DNA from: Trachythela sp. YZ-2020
Taxonomy: Eukaryota; Cnidaria; Anthozoa; Malacalcyonacea; Clavulariidae
Assembly (NCBI GenBank): GCA_016169945.1
Contig: JADLSH010000158.1
Coordinates: 655,001 to 719,000, forward strand
Length of the DNA stretch: 64,000 nucleotides
Direction: 5' to 3'
Both the position numbers and the translations under genes were made by a program. This document shows, piece by piece, positions 22,022-49,372 of this stretch (its first letter is position 1; the number at the start of each line of letters is the position of its first letter). A model generated the notes under the pieces. It saw nothing but the letters and a program-made list of their open reading frames with translations, was not told the DNA's origin and did no database searches.

Positions 22022-22174
22022 CAGGGGCCGGTTATATAAAAAAGTAGTTAATTAAGTTAACTATAGTTAGTGCGAAAGTAAACCAATCAGAATCGGGAAT
22101 TTTAGAGTTAACTACTATTTAACCACAACACGAGTAGTTAAAATGTAGTTAAGACTTTTATACAACCGGCCCTG
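22022..22174. mobile_element. GGGGCCGGTT-family MITE, 153 bp
   Basis: Starts CAGGGGCCGGTTATATAAAA and ends TTTTATACAACCGGCCCTG. The arms are rich in GTAGTTAA / TTAACTAC motifs on both strands. Two longer relatives lie at 23043-24135 and 28087-28888. Confidence 0.85.
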
Positions 22175-22175
22175 A

Positions 22176-22735: not shown

Positions 22736-23042
22736 TTAACATCCAACATCCGCGACTGATTCATTTACGATTTATAATATAAAAGAACGAATACGCAAAG
22801 AATATATAGATAATGCATATTAGAATAGTAAAAATAATACTTTTGCCGTGTAGTCATATATTTCCAAAATAGATATATAAAAATAAACGACAGTAAATTC
22901 ATTAACAACATATAAAAAGTACATGTGATTTTTTCTCATCTTTATCATCGTAACCAAAAGCTTCATTCAAAGATGAATCCATTTTTTCCTTCGCTAAAAC
23001 TCGCTTATCACGGTCGTGATACTCATGCGTTTGCTTATCGTA

Positions 23043-24135: not shown

Positions 24136-24640
24136 AGTTGCGGATATTTATACCACTCAGAAATTAGTAGTGATGTTTCATTGTCTGTAAACGCTCTCCT
24201 TTTTTCTTCACATTTTTTTGGGCAGGATTCTCAACAATTTCTAATTCTTTGCTAGCATTTTCTTCCGAAATAAGTGCTGCGGCCATTTTTTTTAAATAGT
24301 AAAATTTTTAATTTTTCAACGCGCTTCATGTAGTAGTCATAGCAACCTACGATAAATCGTAAAAATCTGTACCTTTGCTACAGATTTTTCTCACGATTTT
24401 TCGAGTTGGGATATTGTGTCGTCATCTTTATGCAATATTTGTTTCTTAAAGTGGCCACCTGCCCTTATTGTACGGGCACTTTGAAGAAAATACGTTCTTA
24501 CTTAGGAGAACATCGACCGCTTAGCAGAATTTATTATATCCCTGCCCAGGGGCGGTCTGAGCTTATTGAACATAGGTAGCACAGATTAAACAAGGGTTGC
24601 AACATACCAATACTGCCGCCAAAAGTGCCATAAAGTGCAC
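24136..24640. other. Unassigned sequence
   Basis: AT-rich sequence with no gene or repeat that I could support. Confidence 0.35.
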
Positions 24641-26990
24641 CATTAGGATAGAATAGGATAGGATAACTTTATTTAAACTGGCTTGCCTCATCAACTACAT
24701 AGCTGGTATTCCTGGGGGGCCTGTATTGAAAATAACGGAAAAGTAACAATACATAAAAATAGAAAAATACAAACAATAGCATGCAATTATGTCTAGGAAT
24801 ATCACTCGTGACCTACCTAGCTCTCACTCACTGATCACGACTGACTAATACTTCCATGTCAGTTTTTCTATCTCTCCTCTCTCTTAATTTACTGTCCTTC
24901 TTGCTTTCCATTCTCTCTTCTTTTTTCTATTCTATATTTCTGTTGTCCTGTTTGTACTGTCATGTCTAATGGCGAGCACCATGCATGGAACCTGATCTCG
25001 TTTGTGCTTCGCCACTTTTGGCACCTTCTTACATAGTGTTATGTTTCTATATTAGCCTGTGTTAGTTATGTACATGAGTAGTTATTTGTGTGCCAAATAG
25101 AGCTGTTAAATTAAATTAAATTAAAATTAATATTCAATTGTCCTAGAGTCCGCCGAATCAATGTCACCAATACACAATGCATTTTAGACTATGCCGCGCC
25201 CATTTGATGCCTCCAGATATGGAGCTTAAAACTAGTAAGGGAAGAGGTCTCTTTCACATTGGCAGGCAGTTTATTGTACTGGTGTGGTCCATTAAACCTT
25301 GGTAAATGAAGGTCTTTCTTTCTTCTTGTATTATAACTATAAATATTGCAATTTTGAAGTAGGATGTTGGACAAACTACTAGGTACAAGATCGTTTAAGC
25401 ACTTATAGACCAAAATACAGGCATGCATCGATCTTCTTTTTTCTAAACTCATCCACTTTAAAGTTTCGAGCGAGCCGGCAGTTGATGTACGTTGAAGGAT
25501 TATGCGAGCAGCCCGATTTTGGAAGCGTTGGAGTTCTTGATTGCATCCCTCAGAAAGCTTAGACCAGGTCACGTTACAATAGTAAAACACCGGTAGTATT
25601 AGACCATTATAGAATGATTGCGCGGCTTCTAGAGTCAACATTATCTTATTCTGGTCAACAGCTTCAGTCTAGCACTTATCTTCAGATATACTTCTTCAAC
25701 GTGCTCTTTCCAATTTAATTGTTCATCTAGAACTACTCCCAGATATGTAAATTTAGAGACACGAGTCAGCTTATGCTCCTGGAGATAGATGTTAAATTCA
25801 AGAGCACTGTCCAGTTTTTGCCTAGTACCAAATAACATAGATTTAGTTTTTGACTTATTTAGAACCAATTTATTGTATTTTAACCAAGAAACTAATCTAG
25901 CTAATAAAATCATTTTGTAATGTCTCCTGAATTCCAATTACAGACTTATCTGAGTAATATATCATGGTGTCATCAGCATGCATACTCACACGACAGTTTA
26001 AAAGGCAGTGAGGAAGATCGTACGTTTATGTATAAAATGAATAATAGGGGACCACGTAGGGGGGCCTGAAGTACACCATACTCAATATTCGTTCGGTCTG
26101 AAAGTTCTTGACAATATTTTACTCTTTGCATCCTTGATGTTAAATAATTCCGAAACCATTCCAAACTATCTCCTCTTATTCCATGATCTTCTAATTTATG
26201 GAGGAGGCAACTTAGATCTACAAGATCAAAGGCCTTTTTTTAGATTGACAAAAACAGCGCCAGAAAGTTTTTGACTATCCATATCATAAATAATTCTATC
26301 AGGTAGGGATATTATGGTGGTATGAGTTGAGTGACCTTTTCGAAAGCCTGATTGGTGATCCGAAAGAATGTTCATTTCTGTAATAAAATCAAGCAATTGC
26401 ATTTGAATGGCCCTTTCCATGATCTGTGACACAATTGGAAGTACTGATATAGGGCGATAGTTGTTTACATCGTTTTTCTTGCTATGTTTGTGGACAGGAA
26501 TCATTTTGGCCTCCTTCCAGTCGGATGGAATCTAACCAGTAATGATGGTTAAATTTATTAAATAAGTGATGGTGGAGCACTCCGAGCTCGACAGGCTTAG
26601 ATGTAGACGTAGGGTTAATATATATATTACCTTTCCTTTCTTATAAAGTGTTTTTATTCGATCTAAAATTACAGTAAACAATAACTAATGTAGGCCTATT
26701 ACTCTACGGTTTATTAACGTCAGCGTAACAAATGGACTTTGCCATGCTATAATTGGCCCAGCCTCTCTGATTAATCTGTCAGTAATACCATCTAGCCAGT
26801 AGCTTTGGTCTGGTTAATTTTATTTAATTGATCTTCAACAAAGGAGATGGGAATTTGCTGTATCACAAAATTTTCAGGAATTCTCGGTGTTAGGATATCC
26901 GGCATACTTCCAAATCTGAAATATTGGAAGTTTGCCGTTGGGTATGCATTGTTCAGGTTTAACAGGTTGATAAGGACAACTTCCTTGCCT
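24641..26990 (-). mobile_element. LINE C: degraded non-LTR retrotransposon
   Basis: Read leftward: linker (about 26940-26820, FVIQQIPISFVEDQL), RT start (26504-26226, MIPVHKHSKK, NNYRPISVLPIVSQ, SGFRKGHSTHT, VFVNLKKG), then about 26164-25973, 25937-25641 (WLKYNKLVLNKSKTK, SKFTYLGVVLDE) and 25641-25189 (FYNGLILPVFYYCNVTW, RFQNRAARII). Frameshifts are many. The catalytic block falls in a poorly preserved stretch near 25.95 kb. The 3-prime tail is a TATCC-type repeat (AGGATA repeats at 24645-24665). Confidence 0.85.
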
Positions 26991-28086
26991 ATATATAAAT
27001 TCAGGCATTAAAATGGCAACAACAATTTATATACAAGAACTGAAGAACTGTAAATTATCTAAAAACTGCTTCAACTGACAATATTTTTAAACACACAATT
27101 AAAGTCTGAGTGCTGAAATGTTTTGTAATGTCTGCAGTTGAAATATTTACTGTTTATAGCATCAGTTGTGATATAATATTTACGCATTCTCAATATATAA
27201 TTTTGAAATTTTCTGTGTAAGGTAGCTGGCGAAACACAGAGGAGTATAAAAAGTAGGAAAAAGTTTAATTAATCTTACCAGTGAGAAGTAATATTGAATT
27301 ATGACATCCACAAGCAGAACAAAAAGTCACTTCTTTCTTGATGTTGTATTAAAAACAAGCAAAGTGGGTGAAAATATCAAGAACCTGGGGGTGAAGGATG
27401 CCGTTGGAGGCTTAGGATCGTGGTTTGTCAGTGGTAATTACCATGGACAAAAGGAACCCTGTGGCGTCAGCAAAGGGAAAAATCCGCCATCTTTTTGCTG
27501 ACACTTTCTGCCTGGCTGACACAGTGAACTCTAAGTAAACTGGAATGACAAGTCAGGGGGGATTGAAGCCGTGCTCTGTAGGTAGTGGCAGTCCTTTTTT
27601 ACAAATTTATTTGAAAAATATAGTTTTTAAATCTACAAATTTTGTCACTTTGACTTTCATTTACGCCTTCCTTTTTCACCTTAGAGCACACTAGGACAAT
27701 TTAAATTTTTACCCAAGACCTTATGATAAACATAATGTGTGCAGTTACTGAAATAATCCAGGAACAAAACATAATTTATCAAAAAACCGCGCGAATATTG
27801 TTGGTTTTTCTGAGTTTTTGGGTCTCCGGATAGAGTTCGGATAAATGACAATGTAATTTATGTCGAAGAATATTAGATGTCAAGCATGCAGTAACCTATT
27901 TTTAACAGTTAAAATAAGGATTATATAAGCTAGCTCAGTCGCCATATTCAAAGTGCTCATTAATGACTGAATGGCCAACAACAACAAGGCGTGAAGCCGA
28001 AAATAACACCACTTGAAAATCGTCAATTTTGTTATTAGTTAGAAGGGTTAAAGTAAGGACTAAAAGCGCAAGATAAAAAGCAATAC
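26991..28086. other. Unassigned AT-rich sequence
   Basis: No gene supported. A 66-codon frame at 27301 (+) has no motif. Confidence 0.35.
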
Positions 28087-28888
28087 CTGGGGCCGGTTGT
28101 ATAAAAATGTAGTTAAAGTTAACTATAGTTAGCGTTAACTACCGTAGTTAAATCCTTAACTATAATTAGTTAACTACAGGACTTAACTGCGTTGCACAAA
28201 ACGTAGTTAGTCGGGTAGTTAACTAATCACACAGTTAACTGCGCGTGGGGTTCGTGTGGGGTGATTAAACATGAAATAACACAAAGTAAGCACTGATTAG
28301 CAACCGCTGACAAGCATTTTGAAAACGACTGCGGACTCATACCAAAAATGGCGGTATTTTGATTCAAAATATTGAAAAATATGCAAGAAAAGATTAGAAA
28401 ACAAAACATAAAGACCAATAAAGTCTACGAAAAAGGCGTATTTACCATGAAAGTCAAACTGCAGTTCTTTGGTAAAAACGACATTGTTTTTCTTTGTTAT
28501 GGGTCGCCTCTCGTCATCGATAAATCTTCCTATGCAAAAAATATATTCCGTTTCGTCGAAAAGACCAAAATTATAGCGTTTTAAAAGCTCACGAGTATCA
28601 GAAAAACCTTTCTAGGGAAGATGATGATTGAAAACCCTCGGTAAGCGTTGCTTTTAGTATTTTTTGACTGATTAAAGTTCATCACTCCTACAAAACGCCA
28701 TATTTAACTGCGCTTTGGGAAGTTAACTATGCCCTTGAGCATAGTTAACTTTAACTACTTTTTAACTGCAGTTAACGCTAACTAGGTTTTTATACAACCG
28801 ACTTAACTACGTGGTTAAAGTTAACTACCATTTAACTAGAAAATGGGTAGTTAAAACGTAGTTAAGAGTTTTATACAACCGGCCCCTG
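28087..28888. mobile_element. GGGGCCGGTT-family element, 0.8 kb
   Basis: Left end GGGGCCGGTTGTATAAAA, right end TTTTATACAACCGGCCCC. Both flanks are packed with AGTTAACTA / GTAGTTAA motifs. An internal TTTTTATACAACCGACTTAA near 28790 looks like a duplicated terminus. Confidence 0.85.
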
Positions 28889-34506: not shown

Positions 34507-34515
34507 CTGGCTTTG

Positions 34516-36238
34516 GATCGTGACTAAAACACCACACGAGTAACACGAGTGACATACGAGTTACATAGGAGTACATACAACACACGAGTACATACGACTA
34601 ACGTAACATCGAGTACATACGACTAACATACGGGAACATACGAATACATACGACTTACATAAGGGTAATAAACTCGTTTTAAAGAATGAGTTGAGTTATA
34701 TTTTTAAACTCCTTATCAACAGGCCAATCAAAAGCCCGACACGGAAACTGTCCAAAGCCCTATCTTCGGTTCAGTGCATGGACCAAATTTTTGAATACAA
34801 GCGATTAATCGCTTTTCAAAACTATCAATTAAGTATTTTTATGAAAATTTATACAAGTTCCTTATATGTCGCATTATTTGAGCATTTCGATTTTTTTCAA
34901 CAGCGAATTTTCGCGCTAATATTCAGTGCATGTCCTTTATTTTAATAGTGCTATTTCAATTCTTTCCTGTTGATAAAGAATTGAGCTATCGTACAAGTTC
35001 ATGGCATCTTTAGTATCGCAATATAAGTCAGTTTATTCCAAACTCTCATTAGTTGCTGGGGTACAGCAGCAACTATAGGATTCGGCAAGCACCTACGTCA
35101 ATATTTTGACGTCATGAAAATTATCCATCAATAACCCAAATTTTCTGAAACTTTAGTCCCACTTTAGTCTTTAATATCCAAACGTTTATCTCTAAATATC
35201 CCATATACGCACCAGGCTTCACCACGCCATGTACCATGCAAGAAGATAAACAATGTGCGAGTTTCTGTAATTTTAGAATTCATATCTTTAAATTTGCGGC
35301 TTTTCAAAGCTCGTGCTACTATAATGCTTTATACACCTAAAAGAGTGTGAAAATGCGCACAACATAGTCGAATTTCGACCCAATCGTGTGTCCAGATTTT
35401 GTGCAAATTGCTTCTGAATATAGAACTCTAAAGTCTAATTAACAAAAGCGGCAGTGTATTAAAGCGGCGGTGTAATTCTTAGTCTAACAATATATAACAT
35501 GCACAATTGTAGTTTGTATATATCTCTAAATTGTCGGCTTTTCTATAGGTCTGTACGACCGTTACAAGGAGCGTAACATTTTGGACAACATGGTCGAATT
35601 TCGATGCAATCGTATGATCGATTTTGAATATATAACTCTACAAAAATAAAAGCGGCGGTGTAATTCTAAGTTAAGTTAAACTAACAAGTACGTAAATTAC
35701 TCAGAACTATATTTAAAAAGATCCAGCAACTTAACGCTCAACAGAGCGTCTTGTTGTAATAAAAGAACGTGGCCATATAGCTAACGAGACTGCCGAACAT
35801 TTCCTGGCATGAAAATGACCAAACATTCAAGTACTTTTGATATAGACGGAGTGTTTCTACTGTATTTAATATTTCTTGTAAAGTAGGACATTCATTGATT
35901 TTTATAAATTACCGTTGATTTTAAGCGTTATTTTTGCGTCGTTTTTATAGCAAAGTAGTATGTCGAGAGTAAAATTCGATTGATATTTTTCGCAGACATA
36001 AAAAATTAGCTTCAACCAATCAAGTTTGTCGACCTAGAATCGAATACGATATTTTTTGTCAATAATGCAATATACAAACACTGAAACGAGTTTACTACCG
36101 TATGTAAGTCGTATGTACTCGTATGTAAGTCGTATGTACTGGTATGTTAGTCGTATGTATTCGTATGTTAGTCGTATGTACTCGTATGTAACTCGTATGT
36201 CACTCGTGTGTTACTCCTGTGGTGTTTTAGTCACGATC
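34516..36238 (+). repeat. Foldback left arm
   Basis: The arm has its own inverted ends, each with ATACGAGTACATACGACT-type arrays (34540-34670 and 36097-36215). Its interior has no coding potential. It matches, in reverse, 36283-36803 and 48154-49363 of the right arm. Confidence 0.9.
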
Positions 36239-36282
36239 GGTTTACAATAAGCAGTTTTGTAGATTTGGCCGATCAACTATAG

Positions 36283-36803
36283 GATCGTGACTAAAACACC
36301 ACACGAGTAACACGAGTGACATAAGAGTTACATACGAGTACATACGTTACATACGAGTACATACGACTAACATACGAGTACATACGACTAACATACGAGT
36401 ACATACGACCAACATACGAGTACATACGACTTACATACGAGTACATACGACTTACATACGAGTACATACGACTTACATACAGTAGTAAACTCGTTTCAGT
36501 GTTTGTATATTGCATTATTGACAAAAATATCGTATTCGATTCTTGGTCGACAAACTTGATTGGTTGAAGCTAATTTTTACGTCTTTGCGAAAAATATCAA
36601 TTTCTCTGCCCTCACTCCTACCGACTTTTTGCCATCGAATTTTACTCTCGACATACTACTTTGCTACGAAAACGACGCAAAAATAACGCTTTAAATCAAC
36701 GGTAATTTATAAAAATATGAATGTCTTACATTACAAGAAATATTAAATACAGTAGAAGCTCTCAGTCTATATCAAAAGTACTTGAATGTTTGGTCATTTT
36801 CAT
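36283..36803 (-). repeat. Foldback right arm, inner segment
   Basis: Inverted copy of about 35.80-36.24 kb of the left arm, including the array at 36310-36485. It carries about 30 bp not present in the left arm (around 36604-36632). It ends at the Polinton TSD TTTCAT (36798-36803). Confidence 0.9.
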
Positions 36804-36994
36804 AATAGTATAGGAAATGAGGGTATCGGCACAGTTTTCCTAAAGACCGCCCTCCCACGCAAACCTAGGAGTTTGGGGAGACCATTTCCCAGACGCACTA
36901 TGGTCACCACTTACGCCGTCATATTTGCGTGGAAACGCGGTCAGTCTGAAACTATGACCGATACCATCATTTCCTATACTACTATATGGTTACG
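36804..36994 (+). repeat. Polinton left TIR
   Basis: It matches the right TIR in reverse over about 190 bp. It is itself bounded by an inverted pair: AGTATAGGAAATGAGGG at its outer edge and CATCATTTCCTATACT at its inner edge. Confidence 0.9.
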
Positions 36995-36998
36995 TAGA

Positions 36999-37471
36999 CT
37001 AATCTGCGGATTCACATTTCTTCTTATAGACATGCTTTGCTGTTATAACTCCCCCACTCATTAATCCTAGCAAAGGAATGTACGGACTTATTTTCTCAAC
37101 CGCTTTAAGAACATCGCCCTTTAAAAGAGTGTTATCATTCAATTCTTTAGATAGTTCATCAGATGACTCTATAGCCTCAAGGCCACCAAGGATATCAGAG
37201 AATTTTGATATAATTAAATCAGTGAGATACTCATTCGCCTTTTTCATTTTATCCTTTTCCCATTTCTTATATAGTTTCTCTATTGTTTTGCTACTAGCCT
37301 TTTTGAGGTAGGCTACGGTTTTGTCATACTCCCCATCTTCAGCCAACTTAATTAACTCACTTCTGGCATCTATTTTATTATTATTATTATTTTCACCTTT
37401 ACCATCAGGTTTTAGTATTTCTTCTATATCACTATCACTATCATCGCTGACGACATATCTTTCCTAGGCAT
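36999..37471 (-). pseudogene. Small acidic Polinton protein with one membrane segment
   Basis: The ATG at 37471 lies 9 bp after the ATPase stop and opens MPRKDM. The frame that codes for the rest is open from about 37462, so a frameshift near 37455 is likely. The readable protein (about 150 aa) has an acidic serine-rich start (SDDSDSDIEE), an asparagine run, a lysine-rich helical middle, a hydrophobic stretch near the C-terminus (ISPYIPLLGLMSGGVI) and a basic tail. It ends just inside the left TIR. I do not recognise the family. Position and gene spacing suggest it belongs to the virion gene block. Confidence 0.55.
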
Positions 37472-37479
37472 TATATATA

Positions 37480-38070
37480 CTATACCAAGCTATATATTCC
37501 ATTGACTAGGTTGATATCCAAGTACTTAGCGTTGTTAAGACTAGATAACAAAGATTTCCCACAATCATTTGATATTCCCCCAAATAACTCATCGGTTAAG
37601 ACCTTCATACTGCGCTTATTATGCGTCTTAAAGAAGACAATTCGCGTAGTGTTATCCCTAACCCCAGTCGCTAAGCTATTCAACTTTTGGGATACTATAA
37701 ATAAGCTAATCCCATGGTGTCTACCACTATATGCTAAGTAGCTAAGCGTACCAAAGTTGCTATGTTGTTTGGTTTCATTAGAGATGTCATCAATTATAAC
37801 AGCTACTCTACTACCACCGGCATCAGCACAAAGGTTTTTAATGATGTATTTAAGCATACTATCAAGTTTATCACCACTCACCTCAACCGCTATTACCCCA
37901 TCATCTGTGTCAATTGGTTTCCATTCCGCATACGTTTTATTAATCCAAATAGTTGGACATAATATGATCACATAATCAAATTTACCTGGTTCTATTAAAT
38001 GGTGTAAAAACACATATGTCTTACCAACTCCTGAGGGGCCAACAATAAGTGTTAACTCCGGTTTATCCAT
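37480..38070 (-). CDS. Polinton DNA-packaging ATPase (FtsK/A32 type)
   Basis: A 196-codon intact frame begins at the ATG at 38070. Walker A GPSGVGKT is at residues 11-18 and Walker B VAVIIDD ends at D94-D95. A sensor-like IVSQ and an Arg-rich C-terminal half follow. This matches the A32-like genome-packaging ATPases that Polintons share with large DNA viruses. They drive DNA into preformed capsids. The start lies 9 bp after the capsid gene stop, and the stop lies 9 bp before the next ATG, a tightly packed minus-strand gene train. Confidence 0.9.
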   Translation of the reverse strand: MDKPELTLIVGPSGVGKTYVFLHHLIEPGKFDYVIILCPTIWINKTYAEWKPIDTDDGVIAVEVSGDKLDSMLKYIIKNLCADAGGSRVAVIIDDISNETKQHSNFGTLSYLAYSGRHHGISLFIVSQKLNSLATGVRDNTTRIVFFKTHNKRSMKVLTDELFGGISNDCGKSLLSSLNNAKYLDINLVNGIYSLV

Positions 38071-38079
38071 ATACTACTA

Positions 38080-39272
38080 TTATTGTATTGATTGCAGGTC
38101 CTTATTAATGAGATTGACAAGTCCGTCACTCACCACAAAGATGTGGCACATCACATTAGCTGCAGTCGCCTTTTTAACAATCTCGAGAAGTATACCAGAT
38201 TGTGTATTTACTATCCGCTTACCATTAGCTGTAACATTACCCTGATTACTTCTAAGATCAACAACAAGAGCAAATGAGTCCTTATAAAAGCCCTTTATCC
38301 CCATGTACTGGTCTGCAACCGGTGAACCGATACCAAACACTCTGCTAGCCTCCTCATAGAATCTCTCCTTAGTAATTCCCTGAGAGTAGACAGAGTTTGG
38401 TACCCCTTCAATGGTGACCTCACATTCTCAATATTGGGATAAATATACTCCTCTGTGTCACCTCTTACTTTTTTGGTGAATAGCAGAACTATGGACTTCA
38501 TTGATTTCCTAGGTAGGTTAATACTTTCATTAACAATAGTCTGATCCTTACCCCATTCTACTGTTTTCATTAAAGTCACATGTTCATATGATAGTGATCG
38601 ACCAGCTGAGTATAAATTAACTATTTCACCGGCTAACTCTTCATTATCCACAGTCTCGTACTCCAGTTCCAAGTTTCCCAGTTCATACCCAGCTACAGTC
38701 TCATCACCCTGCGCCTCCATAATATCAATAGCTTTGCTGAGTGTCAGTACATATTGGAATCTATTATTCATATAAAATGGCGCAAACAGCCCATGATCAC
38801 TAATGATACGGTCTATTTGAACTCTTAGCTTATTCCCATACACCGAGAACATCAACCCATCAGACACTTTCCCAACATCACCGGATGTGGCTCCTGTGTC
38901 GTCACCAGACATAAGCTTTCTAAGGTTCTCACTACCAATTCCATACTCAACTCGTTGGTCCCTTTCTGACTTACTCAACCATAGGTCCTTATATACATTA
39001 TACAATCCCTCACTCGAGCAGTCATATACTATCTCCCCAGCTAACTTTACCCTAAACCTCTCTATTATTGACTTCGACAGGTTATTCAGGAACCAACTCT
39101 TTGCGTTATTGTTTTTAAAGTCAAACAGCAAGTGAAGTGACCCGGGAACTAAGCAAGTATCTGGCTTTAGCTTTGGGATGTCTATATAAAGCTCTTCGCC
39201 TGGTGAGACCTTATTGGGGTTCATTGTTATAACATGCCTAGTCCTCACTCCTTTAACGCTAGACATTTTCAT
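38080..39272 (-). pseudogene. Polinton major capsid protein (double jelly-roll type), frameshifted
   Basis: Start ATG at 39272. About 285 codons are readable, with a segment typical of Polinton capsid proteins: GEELYIDIPKL, CLVPGSLHLLF, LAGEIVYDCSSEGLYNVYKD, LWLSKSERDQ and a Gly/Asp-rich loop. Near 38415-38425 the frame shifts; the proper C-terminal part (about 110 codons) runs in another frame to the stop at 38080. Family length (about 400 aa) fits the sum. The identification is by motif and by position beside the packaging ATPase, not by a search. The shift would remove the C-terminal quarter. Confidence 0.65.
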
Positions 39273-39413
39273 GCGTCGATAACCCGGCTGAAGTTCTGAC
39301 TCTGTGTTGTTAATATATTATTACTACGTTTTATTATTTTCACTGCGCTGCACACTGTGCTGTACACATTTGTGAAAATTTTGTGTTAAACAAATACAGC
39401 TTGCCATCTGTGT
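39273..39413. other. Short intergenic gap in the Polinton
   Basis: The only gap over 100 bp in the minus-strand gene train. It probably carries the promoter of the capsid/ATPase group. No motif assigned. Confidence 0.3.
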
Positions 39414-40895
39414 TTACTCTACACGGCGGCGGCGCTTATAATTATCATAAATAAACCACGCTACAGCTAGAGCTAATAGCCATAAGTTGTTGGCTAGAAA
39501 AGCGAGGCCTTTCGCTCCATATTTTAACAGTGTGCTTAGGATGGTGCCAATTGCTGATACTATTGGCCCCAAATAAGGACCAACTGTAGCGGCGATCTTC
39601 TTAAACACATTATAAACAGCTTTAGATAATTTACCAACCGCCGAGGCTCCTTTGTAAACTGCCGTGCGCCCACTGACTATAATACTAGTTATAACCCCAC
39701 CAATACTCAAGGCAACAGCGGATAACCCAACTGTGAGCTCTTTGTTATTCTTAAGCCATTCCTTAAACCTTTCATACCTGCTGATATCCTCTTCTTGTTG
39801 GGCGCGAACCTTCTCCACTTGCTTTTGCTCTATTGTTCTGTCCCTTGCATTTCGTAGCCCAATAACTCTTTCCTCTAATGATATAAAATCCACTGTACTA
39901 GTATCCGGATCATCCCTTTGGTCAATTACTTCATTAATTGTGTTATTAAAGTGGTCTGCCTGGATCTGTAAGGACCCGTTGGGACCAATTCTTGATTCGG
40001 GGTCCATACTACTTGATGGGTTTAACACACCCTCAAGCTCTCTGTTTTCCTGTGACGTTAGTTCTTCTATGTTTTGGTATTCCCTGTGTGTCTCAATTCT
40101 TTGAAACTCCTCTCCGGGAGTCCCGGGGGTCCCGGAGGTCTCCTGGGCTTCCCCCGGGATTTTACTTACCATATCTCTGAACTGTTCTAACGCTAACTTA
40201 ACGGACGGGTCTTTACTTTTATTAATGACTAACTTTCCTTTGGAACTTGAAATGAAGATTGGGGCTGGTTCACTTAGGTTACCGTCACTATCTTTCGCCT
40301 TGAAAGATATAGACCCTCGGGAGTCATCTGTGGCATATGTTCGTCTGACTATGTCTCTCGACACAGTGTCCTTACCTAATACCTTTCCTCCTTTCATTTG
40401 TCCGAGCTTCTTATTTATTTGCCATACGTGCTTCATTTGGTCGGTCACCACTATTCTTTCATGTTCATCCGTATCTAAAGTAACCCTACCGTCCCTTAAT
40501 ACAGCCAAACGCTCACTTAAGTCATATGTATCTATCGCTAAATTATAGTTTTCATCAGTCACATCTCCGTAGTCACCCGCTTTCTTTACGAACGTTACCT
40601 TTGGCGTACTTACCTTACCATTTATTGTTACGTTACTGTTGTCACTAGGGTTGTCTATAAATGACGTACTTGCCTCATCACTGGGGTCATCTAAAAATAA
40701 TGAACCTACTTCCGGGTTCTTAAGCTGTCGAAACCGATCCACTACTTTCATTTTACCGTAGATTTTTCCGTATGACTCTGGGTTTTTCACTAAAAGATCT
40801 CTTAGTCGACCATATATTCCGTCCAACTGTTCATAACCCATATCGTTATATTCTGGATACTTTTCGAGCTCTCCCATTTCAATGTCTTCATCCAT
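39414..40895 (-). CDS. Polinton virion-like protein with hydrophobic C-terminus (PW-like)
   Basis: An intact frame of 493 codons. The N-terminal two thirds are hydrophilic, with acidic and Asp/Ser-rich stretches, a short Gly-Pro-Thr run (SGTPGTPGEEF, about residue 255) and a charged helical stretch (about 345-385). The last about 105 residues hold two or three hydrophobic segments (about 395-417, 435-465, 470-485) and end in a basic tail (YDNYKRRRRVE). Long proteins with this layout occur as conserved unassigned genes (PW or similar) in Polintons; this assignment is an inference. The ATG is 3 bp past the integrase stop. Confidence 0.5.
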   Translation of the reverse strand: MDEDIEMGELEKYPEYNDMGYEQLDGIYGRLRDLLVKNPESYGKIYGKMKVVDRFRQLKNPEVGSLFLDDPSDEASTSFIDNPSDNSNVTINGKVSTPKVTFVKKAGDYGDVTDENYNLAIDTYDLSERLAVLRDGRVTLDTDEHERIVVTDQMKHVWQINKKLGQMKGGKVLGKDTVSRDIVRRTYATDDSRGSISFKAKDSDGNLSEPAPIFISSSKGKLVINKSKDPSVKLALEQFRDMVSKIPGEAQETSGTPGTPGEEFQRIETHREYQNIEELTSQENRELEGVLNPSSSMDPESRIGPNGSLQIQADHFNNTINEVIDQRDDPDTSTVDFISLEERVIGLRNARDRTIEQKQVEKVRAQQEEDISRYERFKEWLKNNKELTVGLSAVALSIGGVITSIIVSGRTAVYKGASAVGKLSKAVYNVFKKIAATVGPYLGPIVSAIGTILSTLLKYGAKGLAFLANNLWLLALAVAWFIYDNYKRRRRVE

Positions 40896-40898
40896 CTA

Positions 40899-41993
40899 CT
40901 ATTCAACGATATTACTTTCTGGAATCCAACTATTGTGTTTATTATCATAACCTAACCACTTCACCAGAATCATCTTCTTTCCATTGAGTGTTTTCCTTTT
41001 TAGTATTTTCTCAACTTTAAATACACCACCGTCTCGCTTATTACTGACAGCTGATAACTCCTGCTCATAAAATTTACCAATAATTGGCTCACCGGAAAGA
41101 TCAACAATCTCATAAACGTTTGGATCGCCACGAATAACCTTTGCAATTTTAAACAATTCCTCCGTAAAGTTAGCCTCATAGCCTTTAGTAAAGGTGGACT
41201 TATAACTGGATACTCTAACAGTATCATCAACCTTAAACTTATTTAGTGGTAGGTCTCCATATATATGACCATAAAGTGTTGTCCAAACTTGACCTTCGTT
41301 ATCCAGATTAACATATTTCGGCTTCATTAAAATGCTTGTATGCTTTGTACTATTATAGTTATCCACTAGTTGCTGTAACACATCAATCCATTTGTAGGTG
41401 CCACTATTATAGAAGTACTTCCACATAGCGGTCTTAAGTGTTCTGTTAAATCTCTCAATAATAGCAGCCTTCTTATCGGATAAAGTAGAGAAATACCTCA
41501 CACCGCGCTTCTGTAACAATGACTTCACACCAACATTATAGAATTCCTTACCATCATCAAACTGAGCTAACTTAGGGTACCGGTCGCCGAATTGATCCTT
41601 AAACTCAGATAATACCTCATCCACTGCTTTAGTCATGTTACTAGTGTCCTTTCTGTAAACCGGAATGGCAAAGGCATATCTGCTAAGAATCTCTACGACT
41701 GTTAATATCCAGTAATATCCTTTGTTCTTACCCTTGTATTTACCCATATCAACAAGGTCCATCTGTATTTGCTCGCCAAGGTAGTCGGCGCGTGTTTGTC
41801 TAAACTTATGTCTTCTAACAGTTGGTTTATATCTTGTGTAGGTGTCTTGCAACTTTAACCACTCTTTTACTTGTTTCCTACTTACTTGTAAACCATCCTC
41901 CAACGCTCTCTGATACAATCTTTCAACACCGGAATATCCCGTTTTAGGGTTATAATAAAGGTCCCTCAATCCCTGCTCCGACTCTAGTTCCAT
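40899..41993 (-). CDS. Polinton retroviral-like integrase with C-terminal chromodomain
   Basis: It inserts the element, making the 6-bp TSD. The frame has 364 codons. An N-terminal helical domain (residues 1-60) is followed by the DDE core: D79 (QIQMDLVDM), D146 (AQFDDGKEF) and E180 (AAIIERFNRT), with the usual KHTS and KPKYVN region after it. An SH3-like basic part follows, then a chromodomain at about 322-364 (VEKILKRKTLNGKKMILVKW, LGYDNKHNSWIPE), known to guide integrases to histone marks. All catalytic residues are present, so this gene may still be functional. The 10 bp at its start overlap the neighbouring gene's end. Confidence 0.95.
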   Translation of the reverse strand: MELESEQGLRDLYYNPKTGYSGVERLYQRALEDGLQVSRKQVKEWLKLQDTYTRYKPTVRRHKFRQTRADYLGEQIQMDLVDMGKYKGKNKGYYWILTVVEILSRYAFAIPVYRKDTSNMTKAVDEVLSEFKDQFGDRYPKLAQFDDGKEFYNVGVKSLLQKRGVRYFSTLSDKKAAIIERFNRTLKTAMWKYFYNSGTYKWIDVLQQLVDNYNSTKHTSILMKPKYVNLDNEGQVWTTLYGHIYGDLPLNKFKVDDTVRVSSYKSTFTKGYEANFTEELFKIAKVIRGDPNVYEIVDLSGEPIIGKFYEQELSAVSNKRDGGVFKVEKILKRKTLNGKKMILVKWLGYDNKHNSWIPESNIVE

Positions 41994-42568
41994 AAGTATA
42001 GTTCTAGTAAGATATTTCCTATATCAACAGGATGGTCGTTCTGATCAGTAACATTGAATACTAATTGATTAATAACACCATTCCCTACACTAACCTTAGA
42101 CTCGATGTCAACAAATGTTTGGACTCTGCCAAATAGACTTTTATCAGTGGTCACCAGTAAGCTACAGATTCTTCTACTTTTCCTACCCGATTCATCTATA
42201 TTACATGCCGGATCCGCAATGTTACAACTAATCTTAACGTATTCCAATCCGTTGTTAATGTTAACAGGATTATCACTGACGGTGGTTGTACCTCCTTTGA
42301 AGCTTCTGTTATCACTATTGAAGTCCAGTAGCGTAGCCAACCTTTCTGTTATATTCACAACAATACCAGAGTGTGTACATGTCGTTATTCTACACTTTCC
42401 TGTCTGCTCAATAGCCTCCAATGTTACAGTTTCACCCTTAAATAACGACTGTAAGCTCTTAAAGTTGTGATACCCAGCAGTCATTACTATAACCTTTCCA
42501 TCAATAGACATTGCTGTGAAGGCAGAGGGGGAGTTTTTAAAACGCCAAAATATGGTCGCCTTCTTCAC
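41984..42568 (-). CDS. Putative Polinton minor capsid protein, paralogue 1
   Basis: The readable frame has 194 codons. It shares with the next gene the C-terminal signature FxDIESKVxVxxGxxI, VTDQxDxPxDIGxIxxExYL, as well as GLEYxKI in the middle and a similar N-terminal layout. Compared with its paralogue it lacks about 25 N-terminal residues; the frame stays open upstream but I see no ATG, and it is shown from the GTG at 42568. The size, beta-rich look and place among virion genes fit a single jelly-roll minor capsid (penton) role. That is an inference. Confidence 0.5.
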   Translation of the reverse strand: MKKATIFWRFKNSPSAFTAMSIDGKVIVMTAGYHNFKSLQSLFKGETVTLEAIEQTGKCRITTCTHSGIVVNITERLATLLDFNSDNRSFKGGTTTVSDNPVNINNGLEYVKISCNIADPACNIDESGRKSRRICSLLVTTDKSLFGRVQTFVDIESKVSVGNGVINQLVFNVTDQNDHPVDIGNILLELYLWN

Positions 42569-42591
42569 GAAGAGACTGACCGCGGACGAAG

Positions 42592-43341
42592 TTAGATGAG
42601 ATAGGCTTCTATTATTATCCTACCTATATCCATGGGTTGATCATCCTGATCTGTTACCACAACATGGAAGCTGCTGATTTCATTACCGGTATTAACCTTA
42701 ACCTTGGACTCAATGTCATTGAACTCCTGTATTTGACCAAAGACATTACCGTCCTTAGGAATTGGTAGATGCAACACAGTCGAGTACTCAATAGCAGTCC
42801 CGCTCAACTCCTTAGTTTTTGCGGTGTACGTTTTATTATCCAATGTGTCAAATACAACTGGTCTGCTTACATTGGAGATGTTATTAGCCTCATCTATTAA
42901 TCGATCGGGGAAGTTGATTTTCAGGTATTCCAATCCGCGATTCATATTAAGTTTAAGGTGTGCTGTTCGGGTTGTATTGACATTCCATATTGTATTACCA
43001 GGTGTAATGCCTAGAAGTTCAGCCAATTCAGGGTATAACTTCAATGTCTTGCTCTTGGTTGTGATTATACAGAAGCCATTCCCACTGTAGTACTTTACCT
43101 TAATGTCTGGATCATATGCATGAATTGCCTTAACTATGTCAGGGAAGGTGGCGTGACTAGCCTTAGTAGTAAATGTTGCACCATCCACGTCAAACAGGTC
43201 TGTATTTTCAGGGAAATTCCAAAACTCCCAAAGTATTACAACCCTTTTTACCAGTAAATACTCATATCTGTCTAAGGATATTGGGACCTTTGGTGTGATA
43301 ACAGCTTCGGCAGTTTGCACTACCAACGTCAATTTTCTCAT
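42592..43341 (-). CDS. Putative Polinton minor capsid protein, paralogue 2
   Basis: I chose the ATG at 43341 (MRKLTLVVQTAEAV, 249 codons) over the one at 43428. It leaves a 9-bp gap to the divergent start at 43351, whereas the longer version overlaps that gene. The protein reads VPISLDRYEYLL at the start, GLEYLKINFPDRL in the middle, and ends with FNDIESKVKVNTGNEI and VVTDQDDQPMDIG. It is homologous to the neighbouring 194-codon protein, so the pair arose by tandem duplication. The capsid role is inferred from context. Confidence 0.5.
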   Translation of the reverse strand: MRKLTLVVQTAEAVITPKVPISLDRYEYLLVKRVVILWEFWNFPENTDLFDVDGATFTTKASHATFPDIVKAIHAYDPDIKVKYYSGNGFCIITTKSKTLKLYPELAELLGITPGNTIWNVNTTRTAHLKLNMNRGLEYLKINFPDRLIDEANNISNVSRPVVFDTLDNKTYTAKTKELSGTAIEYSTVLHLPIPKDGNVFGQIQEFNDIESKVKVNTGNEISSFHVVVTDQDDQPMDIGRIIIEAYLI

Positions 43342-43350
43342 TAAAGTAGT

Positions 43351-44622
43351 ATGGTGGATTATTCTAAATGCAAGATCGAGCTTGATTTTAAAACTAAGTA
43401 TCCTTACGCCGATATGAGTAGGTTTCACTTTGAAACATGGGCCGCCACTGATGGGTCAGGTGATAGAGGTACTAATGTTTATTTTATAACGAAGGATTGG
43501 ATACTAGTTGATATTAAAAAGAAGGAATTTACGGGTAACAAAGAGTACCAAAAGTATCTAACAATAAATAAGTACTACCACTGGCCTAAGTTGTGGCTAC
43601 CCTCAGGTGTAAATATACCCTTGACAACGCTCAATGATATGAGTGTTGGTGCTGTACTAAGTAACTTTGATGTATACGTTAACGATAGTGATAGATTTCA
43701 GAGTGACCTTAGTAAAATTGAGATTGCGGCGCCCAAGAAACTAATGCAGAGATTCGATATTAATACCGTCATTACCGAACCATATTACAGCAGTATTTGT
43801 GCTATGTACGTAGCAACACATCTCTCAGGGATATCCATGGAGCATCTACAGGCGGAAACCCCCGGGAGTCCGGAAGTTGAAAGTCTTATTAGGTATCATA
43901 TTTATTTTTGGATTAGAAGATTCCTAACAGCTCCGGACGGTCTTAAAAGATACTCCAATCAATTGCAAGCGATTGTTAAGGTGCTTCCTATTGTCACAAA
44001 GAGGTCTGGTAGAAAGTTCTACCAAGGGGTTCCTACAATTGGCACATTTAAGAAAGATCGTGGGTGGAACAAAGTTAAAGATGTTACATACGCCATAAAT
44101 AGCCGAGGACGACCAGTTGGAATATACTACAAGGAAAAGGTGGGCGAGTCGGTAAGAAACGCATCTGCAGACTATAAGTCATTTATACCAAAAACTGGAA
44201 GTACTGGACTAACAACACTTGGACAGAAGCTCCTACAGGAAAGCATAGAAAGCTACGTATATTCAGTCCTTGGATCTCAGGCAAGAACTAGGTGGCCGAT
44301 AGTTAACAGTGGGGCAAAGAGTTCGCAAACACAAGATATATTTCGTAAAATTGTTGAGGATACTGTAGTACAAAGCGATACAACCGTTACTATTGAAAAC
44401 ATGAGGAAAGCAATAGCAGCTACGAATGTAGTGCTTAACACTGCCATTAGTCCAGGCATTATTCTAGTTCCAGGAAATATGATTATTTTACAGAAGCCAA
44501 TTGCTGGCTATAATAATATTCTAACTATTGCGAAGAAGACTATGACCTTCGGAAAGAACGCCAATGTGAACTACAGCGCCGCGCAGTCGGTGAGCCACTC
44601 CACAGTACCAGCGGGACACTAA
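43351..44622 (+). CDS. Unidentified 423-aa Polinton protein upstream of the polymerase
   Basis: An intact frame begins at the ATG at 43351, divergent to the minus-strand block, and ends 14 bp before the readable polymerase frame. I do not recognise it. No membrane segment, Walker motif, DDE or cysteine-protease pattern is visible. The centre is rich in basic residues (FWIRRFL, KRSGRKFYQG, KKDRGWNKVKD), and the C-terminal third contains GQKLLQESIESYVYS. It could be a replication partner, a terminal-protein-like factor, or the detached N-terminus of the polymerase. Confidence 0.6.
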   Translation: MVDYSKCKIELDFKTKYPYADMSRFHFETWAATDGSGDRGTNVYFITKDWILVDIKKKEFTGNKEYQKYLTINKYYHWPKLWLPSGVNIPLTTLNDMSVGAVLSNFDVYVNDSDRFQSDLSKIEIAAPKKLMQRFDINTVITEPYYSSICAMYVATHLSGISMEHLQAETPGSPEVESLIRYHIYFWIRRFLTAPDGLKRYSNQLQAIVKVLPIVTKRSGRKFYQGVPTIGTFKKDRGWNKVKDVTYAINSRGRPVGIYYKEKVGESVRNASADYKSFIPKTGSTGLTTLGQKLLQESIESYVYSVLGSQARTRWPIVNSGAKSSQTQDIFRKIVEDTVVQSDTTVTIENMRKAIAATNVVLNTAISPGIILVPGNMIILQKPIAGYNNILTIAKKTMTFGKNANVNYSAAQSVSHSTVPAGH

Positions 44623-44635
44623 TAGTTAGAGACAA

Positions 44636-47600
44636 GTGAAAGCCCTGCGTGGATACACCAAATCAGTTCAAATACATGCGCACATTGATGACATAAATCC
44701 TATAAGCGTATTAGAGGAAACAAGGAAATCGGTTCGTAAAGTAATAAGTGAGGAATTAGAAACCTCACTGGGTATTAAGTTTGTTAGAACTCTTGTTATA
44801 AAGTTCTATAAGGAGGGGAAAGAGGCACTTACAACTTATAAGGATGTGTATATTAATAGTAAACCTGATATTATCCTACCATCATCTGGTGGCAGTATAG
44901 ATAAACAACTACAAATTGGTGAAGAGCGGATTATGAGTGTGATAGATGCATGGATGGAAGCTGGGTCTGGATGGGCGATTGAAAGCGTTGATCGTCAGTA
45001 TATTAACCTCAATAAATACTCTCCGCTCCGGGGTAGTAGCTATGTACCATTACCTAATGAGCTACGACACAACCGTAAGGGATTGGTTAATATACAGAAC
45101 TATGATAATGAGTGCTTTAGATGGTGCCATCGGTGGCGAAGTGGTTAGCGCACTTGCCTTTCACCTCTAAGGTCGCGGGTTCAAGTCACAGTGAGAACTT
45201 TCTCAATGCGACTCGAACCCAGTCCTCAAGTGAAAAGAGTAAAGTCAACGCTCTGCCGAAAGTCGTGGGTTTTCTCCGGGTACTCCGGTTTCCTCCCACA
45301 TGGAAAGTTGACAGGGTGGGTTGGGTAAAAGGGCCCACAGTAATTGGCATATGCTGTTGTGGTGACCCTGCCCAAGTTGGCGAAGCTAAATAAATAAATA
45401 AATAAATATAAGAATGCTAAACCCTCAAAAAACAAATGCATCAAGGATTAGAAAGGATGATCGGTTGTTTGTCAAGACGTTGGGTTTAGGGTACAGTGGA
45501 ATTAACTTCCCAGTAACCATGAAGCAATACCCCAAAATTGAGGAGCAATGTGGGATAAATGTTAATGTATTTGGATACTCACAGAAGGGAGAAAAGTACC
45601 CTTTGTATATTAGCAAACGTGGTAATGATAAGGTTCTTAACCTACTGTTGTACAACGGTCATTACGTACTTATAACGGACTTCAATAGGTTTATGTATAA
45701 TCATACCAAACACCGCAATGAAAAGCATTTTTGTATGTTCTGTCTACAGTGTTTTAGTAGTGATGAACTGCTTAATGACCATAAGGATGTTTGTATAACT
45801 GTTAGCGGTAAGCAATCAGTTCAGATGCCTAAAAATGGTAGTCAAGTTAAGTTTATTAATTATCATAAACAACTACAAGTTCCCTTTGTTATATATGCTG
45901 ACTTTGAGGCTATTCTGAGGGGTAGTGAAGACCCTGGGAAGCTTCAGGAGCATGTTGACTGTGGATATGGATATAAGGTTGTTTGTGGGTATGATAACTC
46001 ATTTAGAAAGCCGGTTCAGGTGTATAGAGGGTGTAATGCTGTAAATAAGTTTTTGAGAAAGATGTTAGATGAGGTTGAGTACTGTAATAAGGTTAGGAGA
46101 GAGGAGTTTAATAAGTGCTTAAAAATGACTAAGGGCAATGGAAAGCATTTTAAGTCTCAGAAAAGCTGCCACATTTGCGGTGTAAAGTACAGTAAAGACG
46201 ATATTATTGTTAGGGATCACTGTCACGCCACGGGAAAGTATAGAGGATCAGCTCATCAATTGTGTAACAGGAACTTTAGGATGACTAATAAAATACCTGT
46301 AATCTTTCACAACCTGAGCGGTTATGATAGTCACCTTATAATGCAGCAAGTTGGTGAGGTGGCTAGTGAATTTGGGTTGACTGTTAACTGTATTCCGAAT
46401 AACATGGAGAGATACATGGCTATTATGCTTGGTCCTAATCTGGTGTTTCTAGATAGTATGCAGTATATGAGTAGTTCTTTGGATAAGCTAGTTGCTAATG
46501 TCCCACCTGATAAATTTAAATACACCGCTCAGGAGTTTGGTGATGACATCACGGTAATGTCTAGAAAGGGGGTTTACCCGTATGATTACATGGACTCTTT
46601 TACAAAGTTTAGTATACCAGAATTACCTAGTATTGAGAAGTTCTACTCCAAATTGGATGACCGTGGTATCTCAGAGGAGGACTACGGTCACGCTAAGAAA
46701 GGTGGGCAATGAGCCAATCCTTGCCAACTGGTGGATTTAAGTGGTTGGACCCTGGTGAGGCCAACCTTAGCAAGTACACTCCAGATAGTAATAAGGGTAT
46801 TATATTGGAAGTTGATTTGGAATACCCTGAGGAACTTCATGATATGCATAATGACTATCCACTAGCTCCTGAACATAGGTTAATTAATAAGTCTGAATTA
46901 TCTAAGTATTGCCTTGGTATCTGCAATAAATTCGACCTTAAAACTGGTAATATGAGAAAGCTAATGACTACATTGTATAATAAAAAGAAGTATGTCTGTC
47001 ATTATGAAAACCTTAAACTGTATATGGATCTTGGTATTAAGGTCACTAAAGTTCATAGGATTCTAGAATTTCGTCAGAGTAAGTGGCTGGGGGAGTATAT
47101 TGACTTTAACACAGTTAAAAGAACAGCTGCTAAGAACGCCTTTGAAAAGGACTTCTTCAAGCTTATGAATAATAGTGTGTTAGGTAAAACCATGGAAACC
47201 TAAGGAAGAGGGTTGATGTTAGACTTGTGACCAATGAAAAACAACTGTCCAAGTTAGTTAGTAAACCAACATTTGTTAGCAGCAAAATAATTAATGAGGA
47301 CCTAGTAGTTGTTCATAAGATCAAGGAGTCATTATTATTGAATCGTCCAGCGTATGTAGGGATGTGCATCCTTGATCTATCTAAAAAGCTGATGTATGAC
47401 TTCCACTATAACTACGGAGATGGTGTTAAGTTACTCTTCACGGACACCGACTCTTTATTGTATGAGATAGTGACTGAGAATGTGTATGAGGATCTAATAA
47501 AGGATAAAGAACTATTTGATAATAGTGACTACCCTGAGGATAGCCCCTTTTACTTTAAGGAGAATAAGAAGGTAATTGGTAAAATGAAGGATGAAACAGG

Positions 47601-47937
47601 TGGAAGACCAATAAGGGAGTTTGTTGGTCTCCGCAGTAAAAACTACTCTGTGGATGTTGGTACTCCCGGGGGTGAGGTGATAAAGAAATGTAAGGGGGTT
47701 AAAAAATCGGTGGTTAAGAATAATATTAAACACTCTGGCTATATGAAAGTGCTATTCAAATCAAAGATTCTTAGACATGATATGAAAAGCATTAGAAGTA
47801 AAAATCATAACCTTGGTACTCACAACATAAATAAGATATCATTAAGTTGTTTTTATGATAAAAGGTATCTACTAGACAATGGAGTTGACTCCCTAGCCTA
47901 CGGACATAGGGATATATCCGCAGAATATTCTGCGTAA
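44636..47937 (+). pseudogene. POLB: Polinton protein-primed DNA polymerase B, broken
   Basis: It would replicate the element from protein-primed termini. Readable parts: N-terminal domain 44636-45125 (YTKSVQIHAHIDD, GSGWAIESVDRQYINL, NELRHNRKG, ending NECFRW); 45414-46710 with the exonuclease (VIYADFEAIL and IPVIFHNLSGYDSHL) and a Cys/His-rich insert (CHICG, RDHCHATGKYRG); 46709-47203 with GGFKWLDPGE and motif B (KLMNNSVLGK); 47227-47937 with motif C (LFTDTDSLLYE). Breaks: a SINE at about 45129-45410; a junction near 46705 where the frame changes and roughly 115 family residues including polymerase motif A are missing; and a frameshift near 47200. Not functional. Confidence 0.95.
45129..45410 (+). 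mobile_element. tRNA-derived SINE inserted in the polymerase gene
   Basis: The head resembles a tRNA. Box A TGGCGAAGTGG starts at 45133 and box B GGTTCAAGTC at 45177. The anticodon-loop-like CTTTCACC suggests a tRNA-Glu (TTC) origin. A tRNA-unrelated body follows (GTGGGTTTTCTCCGGGTACT, then GGTTTCCTCCCACATGG), then an (AAAT)n tail at about 45388-45409. Polymerase coding sequence resumes directly after the tail. No clear target duplication was found. Confidence 0.85.
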
Positions 47938-47962
47938 TTGTTGCGCAAAAATACTCGAAAAG

Positions 47963-48153
47963 CATAACCATACAGTAGTATAGGAAATGAGGGTATCGGT
48001 CATAGTTTCAGATTGACCGCGTTTCCACGCAAATATGACGGCGTAAGTGGTGACCATAGTGCGTCTGGGAAATGGTCTCCGCAAACTCCTAGGTTTGCGT
48101 GGGAGGGCGGTCTTTAGGAAAACTGTGTCGATACCCTCATTTCCTATACTACT
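47963..48153 (-). repeat. Polinton right TIR
   Basis: Inverted copy of the left TIR with a handful of mismatches. It starts 25 bp after the polymerase stop codon and shows the same internal inverted borders. Confidence 0.9.
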
Positions 48154-49363
48154 TTTCATGCCAGGCAATGTTCGGCAGTCTCGTTAGCTATATGGCCACG
48201 TTCTTTTATTACAAGAAGACGCTCTGTTGAGCGTTAAGTTGCTAGATCTTTTTAAATATAGTTCTGAGTAATTTACGTACTTGTTAGTTTAACTTAACTT
48301 ATTCGCAGTCAAATTGTTAGAGTATAGAATTACACCGCCGCTTTTATTTTTGTAGAGTTATATATTCAAAATCAATCATACGATTGCATCGAAATTCGAC
48401 CATGCTTTGTAACGGTAGTACAGACCTAGAAAAGCCGACAATTTAGAGATATATTCAAACTACAATTGTGCATGTTATATATTGTTAGACTAATAATTAC
48501 ACCGCCGCTTTAATACACTGCCGCTTTTGTTAATTAGACTTTAGAGTTCTATATTCAGAAGCAATTTGCCCAAAATCCAGACACACGATTGTGAAGTCTG
48601 GTGCGTATATGGATTATTTAGGGATAAACGTTTGGATATTAAAGACTAAACTGGGACTAAAGTTTCAGAAAATTTGGGTTATTGATCGGGATGGATAATT
48701 TTCATGACGTCAAAATATTGACGTAGGTGCATTTTGTGTCCAACGACGTAGAAGAAAAAATGCTTGCCGAATCCTATAGTTGCTGCTGTACACCCCCAAC
48801 TAATGAGAGTTTGGAATAAACTGACTTATATTGCGATACTAAAGATGGCATGATCTTGTACGATAGCTCAATTCTTTATCAACAGGTAAGAATTGAAATA
48901 GCACTATTAAAATGAGGGACATGCACTGAATATTAGCGGGAAAATTCGCTGTTGAAAAAAATCGAAATGCTCAAAAAATGCGACATTTAAGGAACTTGTG
49001 TAAATTTTCAAAAAAATACTTAATTTATTAGTTTTGAAAAGCGATTAATTAATCGCTTGTATTAAAAAATTTGGTCCATGCACTGAACCGAAGATAGGAC
49101 TTCGAACAGTTTCCCGTGTCGGGCTTTTGATTGGCCTGTTGATAAGGAGTTTAAAAATATAACTCAACTCATTCTTTAAAACGAGTTTATTACCCTTATG
49201 TAAGTCGTATGTACTCGTATGTTAGTCGTATGTACTCGTATGTTAGTCGTATGTACTCGTATGTTAGTCGTATGTACTCGTGTGTTACTCGTATGTACCC
49301 GTATGTACTCATATGTAACTCGTATGTCACTCGTGTTACTCGTGTGGTGTTTTAGTCACGATA
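48154..49363 (-). repeat. Foldback right arm, outer segment
   Basis: Continues the arm after the Polinton, starting with the second TTTCAT copy (48154-48159). It matches in reverse the left arm from about 35.82 kb back to 34516, with small substitutions, and ends in the CGTATGTACT array and GTGTTTTAGTCACGAT. Confidence 0.9.
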
Positions 49364-49372
49364 CTGGCTTTG

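Follow-up and report, generated by a model that had tools for sequence, protein, structure and literature searches.

The locus at positions 34507-49372 of the window (the whole 64,000-nucleotide stretch of DNA analysed here) raises the question of how two near-mirror copies of a small element, one of them carrying a Polinton, came to lie nose to nose within a single pair of target-site duplications. A preliminary description of this DNA reported a foldback element with arms of about 1.72 kb, a 44-bp loop and a 9-bp target-site duplication, and this anatomy was borne out. With the Polinton excluded, positions 34516-49363 form a 3,492-bp palindrome with arms of 1,723 and 1,725 bp and a loop of 44 bp; the right arm spans 36283-49363, its 1,725 bp being the length after subtraction of the Polinton and one TTTCAT. 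The features of the palindrome are as follows.

34507-34515, unstranded: left 9-bp target-site duplication CTGGCTTTG (exact border repeat)
34516-34533, plus strand: end motif GATCGTGACTAAAACACC (motif search of the window)
34516-34680, plus strand: left outer terminal repeat, irregular tandem units
34516-36238, plus strand: left arm, a complete 1,723-bp element bounded by inverted ends of its own (both borders bear the end motif; relatives occur as single units at other genomic places)
36084-36238, minus strand: left inner terminal repeat, 21-bp tandem units
36221-36238, minus strand: end motif GATCGTGACTAAAACACC (motif search of the window)
36239-36282, unstranded: 44-bp loop between the arms (single genomic occurrence at up to 3 mismatches)
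36283-36300, plus strand: end motif GATCGTGACTAAAACACC (motif search of the window)
36283-36490, plus strand: right inner terminal repeat, 21-bp tandem units
36283-36803, minus strand: right arm, inner part, through the first Polinton target-site duplication
48160-49363, minus strand: right arm, outer part (alignment to the left arm)
49179-49363, minus strand: right outer terminal repeat, 21-bp tandem units, last base changed (TATC for GATC)
49346-49363, minus strand: end motif GATCGTGACTAAAACACC, one mismatch (motif search of the window)
49364-49372, unstranded: right 9-bp target-site duplication CTGGCTTTG (exact border repeat)

The CTGGCTTTG repeats match at 9/9 positions and immediately flank the outer GATCGTGACTAAAACACC ends. 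An exact 9-bp match at the outer borders has a chance probability of ~7e-6 (base composition), and a control of up to 2,000 random border pairs, examined with the same shift tolerance, gave one perfect repeat of at least 9 bases and none unshifted. When the arms were treated as separate elements, by comparison, their flanks matched at 0/9 (left) and 3/9 (right) positions, and shifts of up to 3 bases revealed no perfect repeat of 6 bases or more at the inner borders. The direct repeat is therefore single and restricted to the outer borders, as had been described. The suggested one-step entry of the palindrome would leave this pattern, as would a single copy at this site that repair turned into a pair.

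Two independent insertions 44 bp apart, with the outer match arising by chance or the inner duplications subsequently lost, would be the simplest alternative, and close neighbours do occur in this family (locus L015 carries two members 457 bp apart, with repeats of 9/9 and 8/9). However, the inner borders lack a repeat even at 3-base shifts and the exact outer match would be a rare coincidence; hence, this explanation was rejected for want of an inner duplication and we regard it as highly improbable.

At up to 3 mismatches, the window contains four occurrences of the end motif, against 0.03 expected in shuffled sequence, and these mark all four arm ends, indicating that both loop joints coincide with element ends. 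The attribution of separate inverted ends to each arm was thus correct, and solo relatives with 9-bp duplications of their own concur; the right outer end, on the other hand, had been given as GATC and actually reads TATC. As excised, the terminal repeats measure 155-208 bp. Six pairwise comparisons of the four repeats placed outer-outer (0.969) and inner-inner (0.960) at the top, with left inner-right outer (0.954) close behind, suggesting that each arm is directional and that the arms face each other. The very long inverted repeats, tandem units and short middle of a foldback element are all present, in a palindrome built of two complete elements; with the Polinton in place, inverted segments of 439 and 521 bp lie close together on either side of the loop. 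As the arms are 3.6 % apart and differ by many indels, the structure is less palindromic than its first appearance. The locus is an unusual arrangement of familiar parts, namely two different copies of a small element nose to nose, with a virus-like element, the Polinton, in one of them.

What kind of element makes up each arm could be addressed in the host assembly (578 Mb, 396 contigs), in which the window spans positions 655001-719000 of one contig and the left arm has at least 159 matching pieces. A search of the assembly with the arm, as proposed in the preliminary description, did recover solo units among the relatives fetched at 35 other places, some with their own 9-bp duplications; several of the fetched relatives are internal fragments only. 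Of the 35 fetched loci, 13 retain both ends at up to 3 mismatches. Perfect 9-bp repeats lie at the exact ends in four of the 13 (L013, the first element of L015, L017 and L031), and a one-base shift adds L018, L022, L023 and L024, bringing the count to 8/13; these last four have flanking sequence in common and may represent one insertion that was copied. The five two-ended loci without a perfect 9-bp repeat are L009 (9/10 at a shift of 4), L025 (7/8), L010, L019 and L028. The occurrence of single units with their own 9-bp duplications indicates that the arm is an ordinary single-unit element.

No ORF of 100 aa or more was found within the arms, and no Mutator transposase was recognised by eye in the longer copies (stop-to-stop segments of at least 90 aa in eight stretches, from 8/35 loci). 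The insert in L019 is presumably a Harbinger-type element and we take an ORF in L028 to be reverse transcriptase-like, both on resemblance by eye. The exact end and tandem-unit patterns had no match in the viral contigs or prokaryote genomes searched, a set from which records near the window are possibly absent.

On sequence grounds, the arm family is most like Mutator, with 9-bp duplications and long terminal inverted repeats. The 9-bp length found here falls within the 8-11 bp given for Mutator-like elements (MULEs) in the available text of PMC6446971; long terminal inverted repeats, a MULE character that some MULEs lack, are present in the arms. Closely comparable elements are Tm1 of root-knot nematodes (9-bp duplications; PMC3169594) and Tetris of Drosophila virilis (8-10-bp duplications; PMC4079207), both of which, in the portions of these reports at hand, share with the arm family long terminal repeats, a variable number of tandem units and many transposase-less copies. 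These Mutator/Foldback elements are, however, described there as single elements with one terminal-repeat pair, whereas the present locus comprises two whole elements and four terminal repeats. Plant MULEs with multiple terminal repeats likewise have extra internal repeats and a duplication that is recognizable at the outer but not at the inner borders. As far as the consulted part of PMC3310237 goes, however, most of them carry either tandem repeats at each end or a single additional repeat, while the additional repeats here are the inside ends of two full-length elements.

Whether the arms are sisters or strangers bears directly on the origin of the palindrome. The arm-arm alignment contains 1,480 matches, 55 mismatches and 378 gap columns (96.4 % identity over aligned bases). 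Read processing can generate artefactual palindromes, and an assembly artefact would be a conceivable source of such a structure. We nevertheless ruled this out and consider it barely credible, as 55 substitutions and 378 gap columns separate the arms, the borders are duplicated, the Polinton is in one arm only and the outer flanks are not inverted copies of each other (score 10; shuffles: mean 9.4, largest 15).

The preliminary description had suggested a head-to-head dimer of a simpler element. A simple element does make up each arm, but the doubling of one copy fared less well. Across the core, the arms differ at 44/1229 positions (3.6 %), which ranks 71 of 120 pairs (median 3.4 %, range 0.9-5.5 %) among the 16 rows, both arms included, that cover 880 or more of the 1,515 core columns. 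When the 44 differences were compared with 31 other rows, the left-arm state occurred in fewer than two of these rows at 21 sites and the right-arm state likewise at 16; at the remaining 7/44, both states were found in at least two of the other rows, so that the arms have different alleles of the family. The left arm and L013 have a rare state in common at four of these seven sites, and the best tree, which is star-like, pairs the left arm with L013 (86/76) and not with the right arm. A tree constrained to unite the arms is 14.6 log units worse, with a marginal p-AU of 0.084. An arm distance typical of random family pairs, together with the different alleles, favours the joining of two different copies head to head; judged by these comparisons, the arms are probably two different family copies and not one copy doubled.

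Had fold-back replication doubled one copy, after which the palindrome moved and its arms diverged, the opposite orientation, similar length and shared internal sequence of the arms would be expected. Two core states common to both arms, one seen in none and the other in only two of the 31 other rows, are also consistent with such an inverted duplication, and sisterhood is not rejected at the p-AU above. Nevertheless, the arm distance is that of random copies, the arms carry different alleles at seven sites, and the symmetry extends precisely to the element ends and no further (the loop ends match at 1/9 positions when inverted), where fold-back replication should presumably have taken some flank as well. 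We therefore consider an inverted duplication improbable.

The suggestion that the palindrome itself became mobile was not upheld. A mobile palindrome family should show several whole-palindrome copies, whereas a search of the 578-Mb genome that allowed up to 3 mismatches yielded no second copy of the 44-bp loop; being unique genome-wide at this threshold, the loop looks like a one-off. With up to 4 mismatches allowed, the 35 fetched loci contain neither half of the loop, and the loop has no match longer than 11 bases within the window. A genome search for exact 14-base end pairs 0-30 bp apart also returned none, although it had no positive control and its range misses both the 46-bp case here and the damaged joint of L010. 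At L010, a near-full-length relative adjoins a second element end to end, the two having the same terminal sequence and different interiors; six bases are absent at the joint by our reading, and the far end is cut off. Head-to-head neighbours were thus encountered at two places (the present locus and L010), with readable outer duplications in one.

These observations lead us to propose, with roughly even confidence, that two different copies came together head to head and entered this site as a single unit via their outermost ends. Two different copies of a transposase-less Mutator-like element would have come into a head-to-head position 44 bp apart, and a Mutator-type transposase acting in trans would have paired the outer ends of this closely spaced inverted pair. 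Transposition may then have been of the composite type, with the pair moving intact, or of the alternative type, involving re-replication plus end joining within the loop; insertion in a single event would leave one 9-bp duplication at the outer ends. What we observed of such a composite insertion is the one outer duplication and arms that are distinct by distance but not decisively so by p-AU (0.084). A search for a source pair, a second loop copy and a transposase found none (loop: genome at up to 3 mismatches; transposase: arms and eight fetched stretches, by eye).

Formation of the pair in place is the main rival, and we regard it as somewhat improbable. Here, one copy would have sat at CTGGCTTTG until a break or excision opened a gap, for whose repair other copies served as template; with ends that are inverted repeats of each other, each side of the break could have copied an entire element plus some flank, the two products being joined in the loop. 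Such gap repair would equally account for the 9-bp repeats at the outer borders, for arms from two different family members and for a loop of patchwork origin, and gap-repair growth of inverted repeats has been proposed for Galileo in the accessible part of PMC3573991. It requires, however, two copying events in opposite directions within one repair, and the absence of the loop halves from the fetched loci tells slightly against it.

The proposed joining of two copies before insertion has counterparts elsewhere, and the experimental cases that we found for such composite events come from plants. Ac/Ds elements of maize belong to the hAT superfamily. Their composite insertions, as presented in the sections of PMC4270019 at hand, likewise have two element ends outermost, one target duplication, and elements and flanks joined centrally, but with 8-bp duplications and, in the insertion described, much longer flanks than the 44-bp middle of the present locus. 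A similar arrangement is the VANDAL21 pair of Arabidopsis Tsu-0 (PMC12312487), in which two Mutator-class elements also lie head to head across a short spacer; this spacer is ~200 bp long, the pair is active in a mutant background, and the part of that report available does not mention an outer duplication common to the two elements. Rearrangements at the Arabidopsis pair fit alternative transposition, which suggests, by analogy, that a head-to-head arrangement can provoke such events (PMC12312487, as excerpted).

More tentatively, and somewhat short of an even chance, a Mutator-like system in an animal-like genome may have made a composite insertion here, treating two different copies, head to head across 44 bp, as one element and leaving a single 9-bp duplication. 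If true, the range of alternative or composite transposition, as studied in maize, would widen to take in Mutator-like elements from an animal-like genome. The available text of PMC3169594 accounts for foldback elements by a single element whose terminal repeats gradually became longer; the present locus suggests a second route, in which two separate copies are joined and inserted together. A literature search restricted to open-licence papers found no report of this exact arrangement, which may be in print elsewhere.

The locus is also a nested example with an internal empty site, on account of the Polinton in the right arm, for which the features are as follows.

36798-36803, unstranded: Polinton target-site duplication TTTCAT, left
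36804-48153, unstranded: Polinton/Maverick, 11,350 bp, genes apparently decayed (terminal inverted repeats, end motif, Pfam matches)
48154-48159, unstranded: Polinton target-site duplication TTTCAT, right

As previously described, the Polinton entered the right arm in an insertion of its own: TTTCAT lies on both sides, and the uninterrupted left arm serves as the empty site. Its terminal inverted repeats are 180 bp long with 5 mismatches, and its ends are AGTAGT/ACTACT, the left end being altered to AATAGT, so that the 6-bp duplication and AGT-type ends of a Polinton/Maverick are both present. Pfam matches above the respective cut-offs were obtained for Pox_A32 (A32-like ATPase), rve and Chromo (integrase) and a DNA_pol_B_2 fragment, while an endonuclease VII match fell slightly below the cut-off. 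The PolB match is limited to one 164-aa ORF (profile positions 285-385 of 468), which lies between ORFs on the same strand. A further ORF of 325 aa, which we take to be capsid-like, compares with ~390-415 aa in most of the best 120 of 361 relatives. The claim of a complete Polinton therefore stands for its two ends, which are retained, but not for its genes, which look decayed: with PolB confined to one ORF and the capsid-like ORF short, the element does not look intact.

Polintons/Mavericks, as characterised in the consulted part of PMC8097293, share with this element the 6-bp duplication, (AGT)2//(ACT)2 ends (one of the named Maverick end motifs), ATPase, integrase and PolB, here a fragment; the present copy differs in its broken genes and in the inverted edges of each 180-bp terminal repeat. 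In the series of events proposed above, the Polinton would later have landed in the right arm and then decayed. Its terminal repeats differ at 5/180 positions and the arms at 55/1535, with no detectable difference between the two (Fisher p 0.83), so divergence does not tell whether the pair or the Polinton came first.

The Polinton end pattern had no match in the viral contigs, a set from which records near the window may again be absent, and nine stretches in viral contigs fitted the integrase pattern, none of which was confirmed as a relative. No solved structure related to the capsid-like protein was found by sequence at E <=1, and the structure model of a relative is weak (mean pLDDT 63.9). 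Every organism-naming row among the best 120 of the 361 relatives of the capsid-like ORF is from the octocoral Paramuricea clavata, which hints at, but does not establish, a cnidarian host. By these sequence relatives, the capsid-like ORF does belong to a conserved protein family.

Among the 116 inverted pairs in the window that were scanned for 9-bp end repeats, only three carried such a repeat: the element at 872-1389, the foldback (the head-to-head pair of Mutator-like elements) and a doubtful pair at 22152-28110 (TGTAGTTAA). The 872-1389 element is 518 bp long, has terminal repeats of 145 bp that are 98.6% identical and is flanked by a perfect 9-bp duplication, GGCATTGTG (863-871 and 1390-1398). 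It is a second short Mutator-like element in the window, with ends that differ from those of the foldback family. An imperfect palindrome of 282 bp (23195-23476, 82%) was also detected; inspection by eye revealed no duplication.

Both 180-bp terminal repeats of the Polinton inserted in the foldback's right arm (36804-36983 and 47974-48153) have inverted edges of their own (AGTAGTATAGGAAATGAGGGTATCG, with no edge carrying more than a single change), and each therefore looks like a small palindromic unit.

Elsewhere in the genome, five loci related to the foldback arm (L018, L021, L022, L023 and L024; five places, four contigs) have one flanking sequence in common, suggesting that these copies may be passengers within a larger repeat. 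Three of them (L018, L022 and L023) are located on contig C351. Loci L011 and L012, positioned on different contigs, share one flank and cluster in the tree of family copies (support 100/100), a pattern resembling that expected after segmental duplication.

At locus L010 (1643-4422), two elements with common terminal sequence and differing interiors are joined end to end; by our reading, the joint lacks six bases and the pair is truncated at its outer right end. Locus L015 (1016-3274) holds two family members separated by 457 bp. The 9-bp repeat is perfect for the first of them and matches at 8/9 positions for the second.
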